Shown here piece after piece: positions 14,372-35,882 of a stretch of 64,000 nt of DNA. The position numbers and the translations under genes were made by a program. This DNA comes from Roseovarius salinarum (GTDB lineage: Bacteria > Pseudomonadota > Alphaproteobacteria > Rhodobacterales > Rhodobacteraceae): the NCBI RefSeq assembly GCF_002834145.1, contig NZ_PHNT01000001.1:433324-497323 (forward strand), read 5' to 3'. The notes below the pieces were generated by a model, which had not been told where the DNA came from, did no database searches, and worked only from the letters and a program-made list of their open reading frames with translations. Each line of letters opens with the position of its first letter. Positions within the stretch are counted from its first letter, which is position 1.

Positions 14372-14460
14372 GGGCCTGCCACCTGAAAAGACGAAAGCGG
14401 CCCCTCCTATGGCAGGGGGCACGGGGAAAGGCCACCGGCAACGCGGCCAATCCCGTCTTC

Positions 14461-14519
14461 ATCTTGCCCCAAATACTCCGGGGGGTCGCCCGCAAGGGCG
14501 ACCGGGGGCAGCGCCCCCG
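14461..14519. repeat. dispersed intergenic repeat, copy A (CGGAGTATTT/double-hairpin element)
   Basis: The + strand reads ATCTTGCCCCAAATACTCC plus a G run, then hairpin 1 GTCGCCC-gcaa-GGGCGAC (14485-14502), then hairpin 2 CGGGGGC-agc-GCCCCCG (14503-14519). It lies just beyond the 3' end of ppaC. Read from that gene, hairpins come first and the CTCC/GGAGTATTT core follows. Other copies are at 28677-28733, 34953-35009 and, in reverse, 35829-35882. Confidence 0.85.
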
Positions 14520-14537: not shown

Positions 14538-15458
14538 TCAGACGGCGAGGTTGGGGATGATCTGCTTCTTGCGGCTCATCACGCCCGGCAGCACGACGGT
14601 GTCGCCGGTCACCTCGGCGCCGAAGCTCTTCGCGGCAACGGTCCTGACGAGGTCGTTGGGCACCAGCAGCGTGGCTTCCTCGTTGAGGATGTCGACGACG
14701 AAGAACAGCACCTGGTCAACGCCGTCCTCTGAGGCGACCGTCTCCATGGCCTGCGTGAGCCCGGCCTTGCGATCCAGCACCACCGAGGGTGCCGTCGTCT
14801 CCAGTACGCTGACCCGGAACTTCCTGCCGCCCACCTCGTATTCCTTGCTGTCCATGCGCAGCAGCTCGGCGTCGGAAAACGCGCTGACATCGGACTTGGC
14901 GGCGAACATCTCGGCCGCGTAGTCGCCGATGTCGATGCCCAGGTCGGCGGCCAGCGCGGTCGCCACGGCGCGGTCATGGTCGGTGGTCGTGGGGCTGCGG
15001 AATTCCAGCGTGTCGCTGAGGATGCAGGTCAGCGCGGCGCCCTTGGCCCAGTCGGGCATCTTCGTCGCGTCCTCGCCCATCAGGTCGTGCATGATGGTGG
15101 CGGTGCAGGCCAGCGGGCGCACGGTGATGTCGATGGGCGCCTTGGTCTCCAGCCCGCCGGTCAGCTTGTGGTGGTCGATCACCGCCTTCACGTCGGCGCC
15201 GTTGATGTTGTCGGGCAATTCGGCGGGGTTGTTGGTGTCGACCACGACGCAGGGCTGGCCGTCGGCCACGTCGTCGATGATCCGCGGCTTGGGCAGGTTC
15301 CAGCGCTCGAGCATGAAAGCGGCCTCGGTGCTGGGTTCGCCCAGCAGGACGGCCTCCGCGTCGCCGCCTTTGACCTCGTTGAGGTACCAGGCCCAGAGAA
15401 TGGGCGAGCCGGTGGAGTCCGTGTCGGGCGATTTGTGGCCGAAAACCAGTGTCGTCAT
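14538..15458 (-). CDS. ppaC: manganese-dependent inorganic pyrophosphatase (family II, DHH)
   Basis: Cytosolic family II pyrophosphatase that hydrolyses PPi to drive biosynthetic reactions. The 306-residue protein has FGHKSPDTDS at 6-15, the DHH triad in AVIDHHKL at 95-97, and the C-terminal substrate-binding SRKKQI near 295, all characteristic of this family and different from the hexameric family I enzyme. It has no regulatory CBS domains, so it is the short, constitutive form. It is transcribed away from groES; a 280-bp region with the CIRCE operator separates their starts. Repeat copy A follows its 3' end. Confidence 0.96.
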   Translation of the reverse strand: MTTLVFGHKSPDTDSTGSPILWAWYLNEVKGGDAEAVLLGEPSTEAAFMLERWNLPKPRIIDDVADGQPCVVVDTNNPAELPDNINGADVKAVIDHHKLTGGLETKAPIDITVRPLACTATIMHDLMGEDATKMPDWAKGAALTCILSDTLEFRSPTTTDHDRAVATALAADLGIDIGDYAAEMFAAKSDVSAFSDAELLRMDSKEYEVGGRKFRVSVLETTAPSVVLDRKAGLTQAMETVASEDGVDQVLFFVVDILNEEATLLVPNDLVRTVAAKSFGAEVTGDTVVLPGVMSRKKQIIPNLAV

Positions 15459-27535: not shown

Positions 27536-28585
27536 ATGTCACTTACCCGGATTCTCGCACTCGGCACCGCGTCGGCCCTTGTCATGGGGTCGGCCGCTGC
27601 GGCGTCCGAGTTGCGCGAACAGGCACTCTCGATGTTCGACCCGCTGCCCTCGACGGTGCCGGCGGTCGAGGACAACGAGATCACGCCCGAAAAGATCGAC
27701 CTCGGCAAGGCGCTGTTCTTCGATCCGCGCATGTCCGCCTCGGGCGTGTTCTCGTGCAACTCCTGCCACAACCTCGCCACCGGCGGCGATGACAACATGC
27801 CCACCTCGATCGGCCACGGCTGGCAGAAGGGGCCGCGCAACTCGCCCACGGTGCTCAACGCCGTGTTCAACGATGCGCAGTTCTGGGACGGCCGCGCGGA
27901 GGACCTCAAGGCGCAGGCCAAGGGTCCGGTTCAGGCCGGTGTCGAGATGGCCAACACCCCCGAGAACGTCATCAAGACGCTGACCTCTATGCCGCAGTAC
28001 GTCGACTGGTTCGAGGCGTCCTTCCCCGACGAGGAAGAGCCCGTCACCTTCGACAACTTCGCCAAGGCGATCGAGGCCTACGAGGCCACGCTGATCACGC
28101 CCGCGCCCTTCGATGCCTACCTCAACGGCAACGACAACGCGCTGACCGCCGACCAGAAGGAGGGGCTGGCGCTGTTCATGGACAAGGGCTGCGCCTCCTG
28201 CCACAACGGCGTCAACCTCGGCGGCAACGGCTACTATCCGTTCGGCCTGATCGAGAAGCCGGGCGCCGACGTGCTCCCCGAGGATGACCGCGGCCGCTTC
28301 CAGGTGACCAAGACGGCCGACGATTCCTATGTCTTCCGCGCCTCGCCGCTGCGCAACATCGACCAGACGGCGCCCTATTTCCACTCCGGCAAGGTCTGGG
28401 ATCTGGAAACCGCGGTCGCGATCATGGGCACGGCGCAGCTGGGCATGGAACTGCAGGAGGACGAGGTGGAGAAGATCACGGCCTTCCTCGGCTCGCTGAC
28501 CGGCGAGATGCCCGAGGTCGTCTACCCGGTCCTGCCGGCGGAGACACTGGAAACACCGCGTCCGACCGGCGAAGTCGAACGCTGA
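27536..28585 (+). CDS. di-heme cytochrome c peroxidase
   Basis: Periplasmic di-heme peroxidase that reduces hydrogen peroxide with electrons from cytochrome c. The 349-residue precursor has a signal peptide (MSLTRILALGTASALVMGSAAAA). Two c-type heme motifs are present, CNSCH at 74-78 and CASCH at 219-223. Conserved segments include LGKALFFDPRMSASG, FWDGRAEDLKAQA and FRASPLRNIDQTAPYFHSG. GGAGG precedes ATG 27536; an earlier in-frame ATG would spoil the signal peptide. A perfect FNR box upstream points to micro-oxic induction, and a strong terminator follows. Confidence 0.94.
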   Translation: MSLTRILALGTASALVMGSAAAASELREQALSMFDPLPSTVPAVEDNEITPEKIDLGKALFFDPRMSASGVFSCNSCHNLATGGDDNMPTSIGHGWQKGPRNSPTVLNAVFNDAQFWDGRAEDLKAQAKGPVQAGVEMANTPENVIKTLTSMPQYVDWFEASFPDEEEPVTFDNFAKAIEAYEATLITPAPFDAYLNGNDNALTADQKEGLALFMDKGCASCHNGVNLGGNGYYPFGLIEKPGADVLPEDDRGRFQVTKTADDSYVFRASPLRNIDQTAPYFHSGKVWDLETAVAIMGTAQLGMELQEDEVEKITAFLGSLTGEMPEVVYPVLPAETLETPRPTGEVER

Positions 28586-28616
28586 GCCACCTTCCGGGAC
28601 GAACGCAAGGATCAGG

Positions 28617-28644
28617 GGCGCGGGCAACGGCCCGCGCCTTTTTT
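28617..28644 (+). terminator. intrinsic terminator of the cytochrome c peroxidase gene
   Basis: GGCGCGGG (28617-28624), a 6-base loop and CCCGCGCC (28631-28638) are followed directly by six T residues. This is a textbook Rho-independent terminator 31 bp after the stop codon. Confidence 0.93.
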
Positions 28645-28676
28645 CCCGTCGTCGCGTGCGCGCCGCGCCCGCGTTC

Positions 28677-28733
28677 ATCTTGCCCGAAATACTCCGGGGG
28701 AGTCGCCCGAAGGGCGACGGGGGCAGAGCCCCC
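28677..28733. repeat. dispersed intergenic repeat, copy B
   Basis: ATCTTGCCCGAAATACTCC plus a G run is followed by GTCGCCC-gaa-GGGCGAC (28702-28718) and GGGGGC-aga-GCCCCC (28719-28733). It lies between the convergent 3' ends of the peroxidase gene and trxB. It matches copy A almost base for base, with different loop bases in both hairpins. Confidence 0.88.
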
Positions 28734-28745
28734 TTTGCCGGGCGG

Positions 28746-29720
28746 TCAACCGGCCGCTTCGGCCAGTTCGGTGCCTTCGTCTTCCAGCTCGGCCAGGAAC
28801 TTCTCGGCGTCGAGCGCCGCCATGCAGCCCATGCCCGCGCTGGTCACGGCCTGGCGATAGACGTGATCCGTCAGGTCACCGGCGGCGAAGATCCCGGGGA
28901 TCGAGGTGCGCGTGCTGCCCGGCTCCACCTTGACGTAGTCGCCGTGGTGCATCTCGACCTTGCCCTTGACCAGCTCGCTGGCCGGCGCGTGGCCAATGGC
29001 GATGAACACGCCCTTGCAGGGGATCTCGCCGACCTCGCCGGTCTGGTTGTTGCGCACCTTCACGCCGGTCACGCCCTTGGGGTTGTCCTCGCCCAGGACT
29101 TCCTCCAGTTCGTGGAACCACAGCGTTTCCACCTTGGGGTGCTTGAACAGGCGCCTCTGCAGGATCTGTTCGGCGCGCAGTTCGTCGCGCCTGTGGATCA
29201 GCGTGACCTTGGAGGCGAAATTCGTCAGGAACAGCGCCTCTTCGACCGCGGTGTTGCCGCCGCCCACCACGACGATCTCCTCGCCGCGGTAGAAGAAGCC
29301 GTCGCAGGTCGCGCAGGCGGAAACGCCGAAGCCCTTGAACTTCTCCTCGGACTCCAGCCCCAGCCACTTGGCCCGCGCGCCGGTCGCCAGGATCACCGCG
29401 TCGGCGGTGAAGGTGGTGCCGCTGTCGGCCCTGGCCACGAAGGGTCGGCTGTCGGTGTCCAGCTCGGTGATGATGTCGGTGACCACGTCGCAGCCGACGG
29501 CCTTGGCATGTGCTTCCATGCGCAGCATCAGGTCGGGGCCCTGTACCTCGGTGTCGCCGGGCCAGTTCTCGACCTCGGTCGTCGTCGTCAGCTGGCCGCC
29601 GGGTTCCAGGCCCTGCACCAGCACCGGGTCGAGCATCGCGCGGGCCGCGTAGACGCCCGCGGTATAGCCGGCCGGACCGGAGCCGACGATGAGGCATTTG
29701 GTGTGACGGGGCTTGGACAT
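28746..29720 (-). CDS. trxB: thioredoxin-disulfide reductase
   Basis: Low-molecular-weight thioredoxin reductase, a cytosolic FAD enzyme that passes NADPH electrons to thioredoxin. The 324-residue protein has the FAD loop IVGSGPAGYTAG (11-22), the redox motif CATC at 136-139, the NADPH loop VVGGGNTAVEEA (about 153-164) and the C-terminal FAD segment GIFAAGDLTDHVYRQA. AGGTG precedes ATG 29720. An Lrp-type regulator is divergent on the other side of about 200 bp, and repeat copy B lies beyond the stop codon. Confidence 0.97.
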   Translation of the reverse strand: MSKPRHTKCLIVGSGPAGYTAGVYAARAMLDPVLVQGLEPGGQLTTTTEVENWPGDTEVQGPDLMLRMEAHAKAVGCDVVTDIITELDTDSRPFVARADSGTTFTADAVILATGARAKWLGLESEEKFKGFGVSACATCDGFFYRGEEIVVVGGGNTAVEEALFLTNFASKVTLIHRRDELRAEQILQRRLFKHPKVETLWFHELEEVLGEDNPKGVTGVKVRNNQTGEVGEIPCKGVFIAIGHAPASELVKGKVEMHHGDYVKVEPGSTRTSIPGIFAAGDLTDHVYRQAVTSAGMGCMAALDAEKFLAELEDEGTELAEAAG

Positions 29721-34925: not shown

Positions 34926-34957
34926 GCACGGGCGCCGCGCGGCGCCGTGCACATTTT
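34926..34957 (+). terminator. terminator-like hairpin after ubiK
   Basis: GCACGG(G)CGCC, four bases and GGCGCCGTGC pair with a single bulged G (34926-34950) and are followed by ACATTTT. It lies 50 bp after the ubiK stop and overlaps the start of repeat copy C. Confidence 0.45.
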
Positions 34958-35009
34958 CCTGCCGCAAGTATCCCGGGGGTGAGGCCGAAGGCCGAGGGGG
35001 CGACGCCCC
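34953..35009. repeat. dispersed intergenic repeat, copy C (diverged)
   Basis: TTTTCCTGCCGCAAGTATCC plus a G run replaces the usual start. Hairpin 1 is GGCC-gaa-GGCC (34983-34993) and hairpin 2 is GGGGC-gac-GCCCC (34997-35009). Compared with copies A and B the stem bases of hairpin 1 differ on both sides while remaining complementary. Confidence 0.75.
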
Positions 35010-35259: not shown

Positions 35260-35760
35260 ATGGCACTTTCCGAGCAGTTCCTGCAGGAGGATCTTCACCC
35301 CATCGACATCGTCGAGCACCTGGCGGAGCATCACGACTGGGAGTTCGACAGGATCGCCGACGACCAGATCGCGATGGCTGTCGAGGGGCAGTGGCGCACC
35401 TATTCGGTCACGTTGGCCTGGTCGGGCTACGACGAGACGCTGCGGATGGTCTGCACCTTCGAGATGGAGCCGCCCGAGGCGCGGCTGCCGGCGCTCTACC
35501 ACGCGCTCAACGAGGTCAACGACCAGTGCTGGGCAGGCGCCTTCACCTACTGGGCGGAGCAGAAACTGATGGTCTACCGCTACGGCCTTGTGATGGCTGG
35601 TGGCCAGGTCGTGAGCCCCGACCAGATCAACACGCTCATCAACACCGCCGTCCTGAGCGCCGAACGCTTCTATCCGGCGTTCCAGCTTGTCATCTGGGGC
35701 GAGCGTCCGCCACGGGAGGCGTTGCAGGTCGCGATCGCCGAGGCCTACGGGAGGGCCTGA
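35260..35760 (+). CDS. YbjN domain-containing protein
   Basis: A 166-residue protein of the YbjN family, whose fold resembles type III secretion chaperones. In E. coli YbjN over-expression alters motility and stress traits, but no biochemical role is known. The typical pattern is visible: HHDWEFDRIADDQIAMAVEGQWRTY in the first half, and ALYHALNEVNDQCWAGAFTYWAEQKLMVYRYGL in the centre. GAGG precedes ATG 35260. The gene sits alone between repeat copies C and D, and its leader has two hairpins. Confidence 0.88.
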   Translation: MALSEQFLQEDLHPIDIVEHLAEHHDWEFDRIADDQIAMAVEGQWRTYSVTLAWSGYDETLRMVCTFEMEPPEARLPALYHALNEVNDQCWAGAFTYWAEQKLMVYRYGLVMAGGQVVSPDQINTLINTAVLSAERFYPAFQLVIWGERPPREALQVAIAEAYGRA

Positions 35761-35828
35761 TCGCGGGTCTTGCCAAGCGGTGCGCCTTGCGGCGCGCAGC
35801 TTGTGGTCGCGCTCGGGCCGCGCGGGCC

Positions 35829-35882
35829 CTGAGGGGCGCCGCCCCTCAGACACCCCGGAGTATTTGACCCAAGGTGAAGATC
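35829..35882. repeat. dispersed intergenic repeat, copy D (reverse orientation)
   Basis: Read on the + strand from the YbjN gene: hairpin CTGAGGGGC-gcc-GCCCCTCAG (35829-35849), then CACCCCGGAGTATTTG (35851-35866) and AAGGTGAAGAT. It is the inverse orientation of copies A to C and has one hairpin instead of two. It lies 68 bp after the YbjN stop and before proC. Confidence 0.8.

Follow-up and report, generated by a model that had tools for sequence, protein, structure and literature searches.

The repeat described here, found in a 64,000-nucleotide stretch of Roseovarius salinarum DNA (the window), is best read as a new REP-like gene-end family of the Rhodobacterales, with hairpins that are putative RNA 3' barriers and a core and tail that form a putative recognition site (probability roughly 0.55). 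In most copies, exchangeable GC hairpins are combined, mosaic-like, with a core and a purine-rich tail of 10-12 nt.

Results

Copies of the repeat in the window

Copy A (14457..14518, minus strand) consists of hairpin 1 (14504-14518), hairpin 2 (14484-14503), the core CCCCGGAGTATTT (14471-14483) and the tail CAAGATGAAG (14457-14466), and lies beyond the 3' end of a DHH/DHHA2 gene (14538-15458, minus strand). Copy B (28674..28733, minus strand) has the same build, with hairpin 1 at 28719-28733, hairpin 2 at 28702-28718, the core at 28687-28699 and the tail CAAGATGAA at 28674-28682; it is placed behind a Pyr_redox_2 (trxB-like) gene (28746-29720, minus strand), which converges with a CCP_MauG gene (27632-28585, plus strand). 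On the opposite strand of the same gap, a conventional GC hairpin followed by six T (28616-28644, plus strand) lies behind the gene at 27632-28585. Copy D (35830..35879, plus strand) belongs to class II (see below) and is formed by the hairpin TGAGGGGC-GCC-GCCCCTCA (35830-35848), the core (35853-35865) and a type-2 tail, CAAGGTGAAG (35870-35879), behind a YbjN gene (35260-35760, plus strand). Upstream of it is an extra hairpin, GTGCGCC-TTGC-GGCGCGC (35780..35798, plus strand), as with some other class II copies; by eye, similar hairpins are seen at loci L007, L016, L039, L048 and L049.

The original prediction listed four window copies with a common core, and this stands for A, B and D, whereas C (34953..35009, minus strand) is degenerate: both hairpins are present and the core is altered to CCCCCGGGATACTT, which on the minus strand gives GGGATACTT where GGAGTATTT is expected. 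Copy C is on the strand opposite to both neighbouring genes, was unmatched at two mismatches in the window search and is absent among the matches of the R1 model described below. A window search with CAAATACTCCGGGG, allowing up to two mismatches, returned A, B and D as all three of its matches; the chance mean is 0.27, and three matches were reached in 0/100 shuffles. As had been stated, none of the four copies lies within a called gene (by a home-made caller), and the order stop codon, hairpin(s), GGAG, TATTT is true of A, B and D.

A genome-wide family of hairpins, core and tail

The genome that holds the window (G000) is a 3.40-Mb draft in 59 contigs. The genome-wide search proposed as a check on the original prediction revealed far more copies than those of the window: AAATACTCCGGGG occurs 45 times exactly and four times with one mismatch, giving 49 copies, and the reversed pattern not once. 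R1, a sequence-only model of core and tail with 28 positions, found 90 copies at E<=0.01, and these together with one copy at E 0.03 make up the 91 copies analysed.

Read on the core strand, the layout is hairpin(s), then (CCCCG or GGCGG)GAGTATTT, 4-5 free bases and mostly CAAGATGAAG; the spacer between core and tail is four bases in 83/91 copies and five in 8/91. The cores among the 91 are GAGTATTT, GAGTACTT or GAGTATCT, and outside this genome the core GAGTATTT is joined by the forms GGATATTT and GGGTATTT. The idea that the core is promoter-like or sigma-54-like was dropped after inspection by eye, the bases concerned not being conserved in all copies. The tail (CAAGATGAAG or CAAGGTGAAG), 4-5 nt behind TATTT, had gone unnoticed in the original prediction. 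CAAG[A/G] stands 4 or 5 bases behind TATTT in 49/49 copies picked by core alone, and across the 91 copies the tail is CAAG[AG]TGAA nearly always (exceptions include L001, L018, L131 and L135), a constancy that among R1-found copies is partly a selection effect. In loci L001-L049 of this genome the tail comes in two types, GCAAGATG and CCAAGGTG, in which the bases on either side of CAAG are linked, the first being predictive of the second. Four gaps contain a pair of copies in tail-to-tail arrangement, at L001 (divergent by the home-made calls), L015 and L018 (tandem) and L048 (convergent).

In class I, hairpin 1 (GGGGGCGCTGCCCCC or a variant of it) is followed by hairpin 2, and that by CCCCGGAGTATTT; hairpin 2 falls into the families GTCGCCC/GGGCGAC, TTGGCC/GGCCAA and TCGGCC/GGCC. 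In class II, hairpin 1 comes straight before the core and a further hairpin is often found upstream; class III has GCCTCCGGCGGGAGTATTT, and class IV has GAGTATTT preceded by diverse sequence. A simple rule divides the 91 copies into 48 of class I/II (CCCCG), 28 of class III and a remaining 15, among which L046 is a class I copy with one altered base.

The tail 10-mer CTTCATCTTG has 65 sites in the genome (control 6), 7 of them without a core. Nine sites of this 10-mer lie off the R1 matches (E<=0.05); inspection by eye of the 210 bases around each revealed two elements with altered cores and seven coreless sites, with no common RNA among the nine, and a trans RNA complementary to the tail was rejected on these grounds.

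Hairpin structure

Compared with mononucleotide shuffles, the 50 nt upstream have a mean z of -1.43 in class I/II, -0.14 in class III and -0.8 in the remainder. Upstream structure in the 28 class III copies thus does not exceed that of shuffles, the mini-hairpin apart, and the 15 other copies are mixed, 47% of them falling below z -1 where a window control gives 23%.

The proposed CTCC-nnn-GGAG mini-hairpin proved to be enriched, although not universal. In 43/91 copies of the genome a stem of at least four pairs directly abuts TATTT, against 3-13 in 20 sets in which the upstream 20 nt were shuffled; the same test slid 3-8 nt upstream gave 16-24/91, and slid 3 or 5 nt downstream gave 0. Across 117 loci found with the core and tail pattern in genome contigs, 65/124 copies have the flush stem (6-15 when shuffled). 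Hairpin 2 was found by rule in 31/49 core copies, and at some of its pairs both sides of the stem have changed, from C-G to G-C: in the GTCG family at the sixth pair in 4/14 copies and at the seventh in 1/14, and in the TTGG family at the sixth pair in 5/12. Because the copies are related, neither these exchanges nor the flush stems are independent events. RNAalifold on a MAFFT alignment detected hairpin 1 alone, since hairpin 2 is misaligned there, and some copies in the genomes G207 and G044 are without an evident hairpin by eye. Searches with Rfam covariance models gave no match at gathering in the window and, for six loci at E<=0.5, two matches that were both off the elements and under the gathering score. 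A known RNA family was therefore rejected.

Position relative to genes

Genes were called with a home-made program based on codon usage, for which the window (65 genes, 90% coding) was the training set and which is less reliable in other genomes. By these calls, 39 of the 91 copies lie in convergent gaps, 34 are tandem sense, 12 tandem reverse and 4 divergent, with one inside a called ORF and one lacking an upstream call. Of the window's gap bases (gaps >=40 nt), 9% belong to convergent and 29% to divergent gaps, so that placement is non-random with respect to gene ends, in agreement with the original prediction: the copies lie mostly in convergent and tandem gaps and avoid divergent ones (39, 46 and 4 of 91), as in REPs.

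Among the tandem copies, sense outnumbers reverse by 34:12 (p 0.0016). This preference, shared by the congener G207, fades in other genomes until it is near absent. The 49 copies placed in G044, a genome of another genus, are distributed as ++16, --15, +-17 and -+1. In 151 loci from other genomes (30 from family members chosen for core matches, 117 from the contig pattern search and 4 from plasmids), the 134 exact core and tail matches give ++40, --35, +-40, -+4 and 15 other. Under stricter gene scores the ++/-- counts are 31/11 in the own genome, 35/29 in the 117 contig-pattern loci, 12/6 in G207 and 11/10 in G044. The plasmid sample comprised 16/25 matches, 3 of the 16 being without annotation, and the PLSDB gene tables are incomplete; the 13 annotated copies, some at related loci, are ++4, +-6, --3 and -+0. 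On an Antarctobacter and a Marinibacterium plasmid (L319, L320), a reversed element separates a parA-type gene from a parB-type gene.

Some copies separate likely operon partners. A Pfam scan of 10/34 tandem sense pairs revealed dnaN-recF-like, dfp-dut and pdxA-ksgA pairs and a pair of TP_methylase genes, all of which, by their gene order, look like operon partners, and most of the others do not look so. One plasmid copy stands between bchX and bchY, and on a Salipiger plasmid the order is binding-protein gene, element, permease.

Tail dialects

For the following counts, copies were picked by core alone. In G044, 30/52 core matches were examined: 23 have the tail GACAGAAGAA, one has it with one base changed, and six are without element hairpins and are probably chance matches. 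In G039 (17/27 core matches), 11 have ACG[AT]AGAGAA, one a variant, and five are without hairpins. Two dialects occur in G103 (31/81 core matches), CGAAATGAA in 15 copies and CAGAAAGAA in 11, besides four variants and one match without hairpins, and G106 (13/38) is mixed, with CAAGAAGAA in three, ACAGAAGAA in two, ACAGAAAGTG in four by eye and four without hairpins. The tail is accordingly uniform within a genome, in one or two forms, and different between genera, whereas hairpins and core are common to the genera.

Searched by its tail, G044 has 60 sites (control 2). Of these, 25 that were not core matches were fetched and, by eye, 21 have a core variant in front, many without an evident hairpin. 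To a large extent, then, core and tail go together whatever the hairpin.

Persistence of elements and change of hairpins at orthologous gene ends

The G207 sample comprised 41 R1 matches, 30 of which had loci (27 with a core match and 3 without), giving 31 rows. In 11 of the 31 rows, which represent 9 distinct sites (one element occupies two rows), flanking gene and strand agree with those of a copy in the own genome, where about one such row would be expected by chance (estimated as 31 x 91 / ~3,300 genes, the gene number being assumed). At most of these shared sites the hairpins are unlike, and at the pair L300/L013 the G207 side is without an evident hairpin. The tails are sometimes unlike too, as in L311/L015 (CAAGAAGAAA and CAAGATGAAG) and L289/L003 (type 1 and type 2). 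Because the matches came from R1, the kept core and tail at G207 sites are partly ascertained; the sharing of sites is not so affected.

The 3' flank of the trxB-like gene was compared across 17 genomes of the genus, the own genome among them and one of the flanks being short; a broad pattern found an element in sense in 5, in antisense in 4 and none in 8. The elements at this gene end vary in hairpins, cores (GGAGTATTT, GGATATTT, GGGTATTT) and tails, and the site of copy B is empty in G205; none of the genomes compared is near-identical. In the trxB gap of the congener G176 (L054, 1235-1510), two elements of different class, with two different tails, stand tail to tail. Within the genus, then, elements persist at orthologous gene ends while their hairpins change.

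Between genera, about 4-5 of 49 G044 sites are common to the own genome and about 2 would be by chance (an estimate), at least one of them in reversed orientation; with shared sites this near the chance estimate, the case for site conservation across genera is weak. In G044, three tandem elements lie 118 bp apart at contig C39, 107026-107271 (L351), and pairs of elements 122-177 bp apart are found elsewhere in G044 and in G039.

Distribution in the Rhodobacterales and searches outside the order

Of 289 genomes of the class searched under stricter filters, 8 gave R1 matches: the own genome, one family member and six genomes with single matches (E 0.003-0.009) that look like chance. Among 39 relatives it matched 20/24 congeners (own included) and 0/15 genomes of other families. 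Of 18 family members chosen for many core matches, 15 were matched, with up to 137 copies. With the core pattern alone, counts across 196 genomes of the order ranged from 0 to 88 per genome, and in many of them the count was about that of the reversed control. A 23-bp core and tail pattern was found in at least 117 stretches of genome contigs; the 80 stretches among the matches listed have titles naming Rhodobacterales genera, bar two from one MAG labelled only Alphaproteobacteria. As far as searched, the family is confined to the Rhodobacterales.

A search of phage records with one class I copy as query gave no match at E<=0.01, and of six exact core and tail matches in viral contigs one (L361) has hairpins and five lie, by eye, in seemingly unrelated sequence; a phage origin was dismissed. 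The literature matches listed, including the parts seen of PMC8632094, PMC7866481, PMC2817692, PMC12306157 and PMC2873474, contain no description of the repeat in Rhodobacterales, which is not proof of absence.

Discussion

In the preferred reading the two parts of the element have separate roles. The hairpins, once transcribed, would shield the upstream message from 3' exonucleases in either orientation, and may also attenuate read-through by analogy with REPs elsewhere; barriers or attenuators of this kind would tolerate either orientation. The core and tail would be the recognition site of a lineage-variable candidate factor, which could be an enzyme that spreads or homogenises the copies, or a protein or RNA that binds gene ends. 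A strict strand-specific RNA signal is weakened by the near-neutral orientation in G044 and the other genomes. The weak points of the analysis are the home-made gene calls, the relatedness of the copies, the use of chosen genomes in several comparisons and the ascertainment by R1.

More tentatively, GAGTATTT-N4-tail could itself be a gene-end tag for a putative fast-evolving trans-acting reader, with hairpins as optional additions. The genus dialects are uniform over dozens of dispersed sites, whatever the hairpin, so that site and reader would co-evolve and ends would be re-written in place.

It is rather unlikely that the repeat is a dedicated non-canonical terminator, in which the hairpins and the mini-hairpin flush with UAUUU would release the RNA and termination between operon partners would be partial. 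The 39/91 copies in convergent gaps, the 34:12 sense preference, the excess of flush mini-hairpins over shuffled and slid controls, and the rarity of U-run terminators at other gene ends (10/137 gapped ends) are all consistent with such a role. However, five T within eight bases from TATTT occur in just 8/91 copies and TTTT in 5/91, so that the U-run of a canonical terminator is missing, and the tail is conserved past any release point. Reverse orientation is common elsewhere (16:15 in G044 and 40:35 in the other genomes), and copies lie between likely operon partners, bchX-bchY included. Nor are U-run terminators rarer where an element is present (8/66 against 10/137 ends; p 0.37 for convergent and 0.74 for tandem gaps); the idea that element and canonical terminator exclude each other at gene ends was dropped for want of a difference, in a comparison of little power. 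The compound terminator of the original prediction is thus not established.

A site acting at the DNA level, its core and tail bound by a protein as a roadblock or in a nucleoid- or supercoil-related role (compare gyrase or IHF at REPs), appears improbable. Tolerance of both orientations in other genomes, concentration in convergent gaps, an element at 9/17 trxB ends and a long specific motif even in copies that by eye are without evident hairpins would all suit a DNA site, but the core-tail spacer varies (4 in 83 and 5 in 8 of 91 copies), a sense bias exists within the genus and there is no candidate protein.

Slightly more doubtful again is a site of RNA processing or binding, where RNase E would cut at GUAUUU, the hairpins would guard the upstream fragment and the A-rich tail would bind a protein such as Hfq, itself a mere guess. 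RNWUU is the RNase E consensus of Salmonella, and it fits 87/91 cores. AU-rich sequence behind a hairpin has, as a mark, little discriminating power. RNase E sites of R. sphaeroides are AU-enriched according to the part seen of PMC6238624, and the gene order on the Salipiger plasmid would suit processing between binding protein and permease. The reverse orientation common outside the genus argues against such a site, and the lineage dialects of the tail would be left unexplained. Finally, chance or a composition artefact can be set aside: single hairpins are common in GC-rich sequence, but the reversed-pattern control (0 against 49) and the window shuffles refute it, and orthologous copies exist in G207.

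Major marine bacteria and model phototrophs belong to the Rhodobacterales. Little is said of their transcript ends in the portions seen of the literature found, and a tag at about 90 gene ends, patchy across the order and with genus dialects, provides a handle on 3'-end formation. The repeat also opens a way into the question of how RAYT-less repeats spread or are retained, and it offers a simple test of the co-evolution of repeat and reader.

Classical GTAG REP/BIME elements with their RAYTs resemble the family in that both are intergenic, hairpin-forming repeats dispersed over convergent and tandem gaps, form mosaics, occasionally occur as tandem copies and make up lineage-specific families. 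The Roseovarius repeat differs in having a long sequence-specific core and tail, and in being without the tag and the Y1 transposase. GTAG or CTAC is present in 1/91 copies (7-19 in shuffles) and the looser GTRG anywhere in 14/91. To our knowledge, the 22-nt sequence-specific part exceeds any REP tag. A search for Y1_Tnp (PF01797) found none in 15/16 genomes, the own genome included, the sole match being in G020; the control search was positive in 5/14, E. coli and Caulobacter among them. With neither a GTAG tag nor a RAYT-type transposase, the repeat is therefore not a classical REP, and a RAYT-driven REP was rejected for the own genome; what survives of the suggested REP/BIME likeness is architecture and placement.

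Transposase-less REPs have already been described in Alphaproteobacteria (PMC3733652, seen in part), but the Roseovarius family does not carry the defining REP tags. According to the same partial text, convergent and unidirectional gaps are the main location of known REPs, and CGTC REPs, which predominate in Alphaproteobacteria and have no dedicated transposase, adjoin the 3' ends of converging genes, all of which resembles the present family; compared by description, they differ in that the part seen mentions no conserved core and tail. The CGTC mark, at one end of a stem of 8-9 bp, was found with a stem in only 16/91 copies. Br-REP1 and Br-REP2 of Bradyrhizobium (~200 and >=50 sites) are likewise multi-hairpin, linked to 3'-UTRs and strongly variable between related species, with other sequences and with no fixed core and tail in the part seen of their description (PMC5082802). 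Intrinsic terminators without a U-tract share the GC hairpin(s) behind stop codons, whereas the Roseovarius repeat has a conserved 22-nt core and tail and is nearly strand-neutral outside the genus. With its many dispersed intergenic hairpin copies (49 by core, 90 by R1), the family belongs with REP-like elements in the wide sense, and its placement, mosaicism and patchiness are REP-like.
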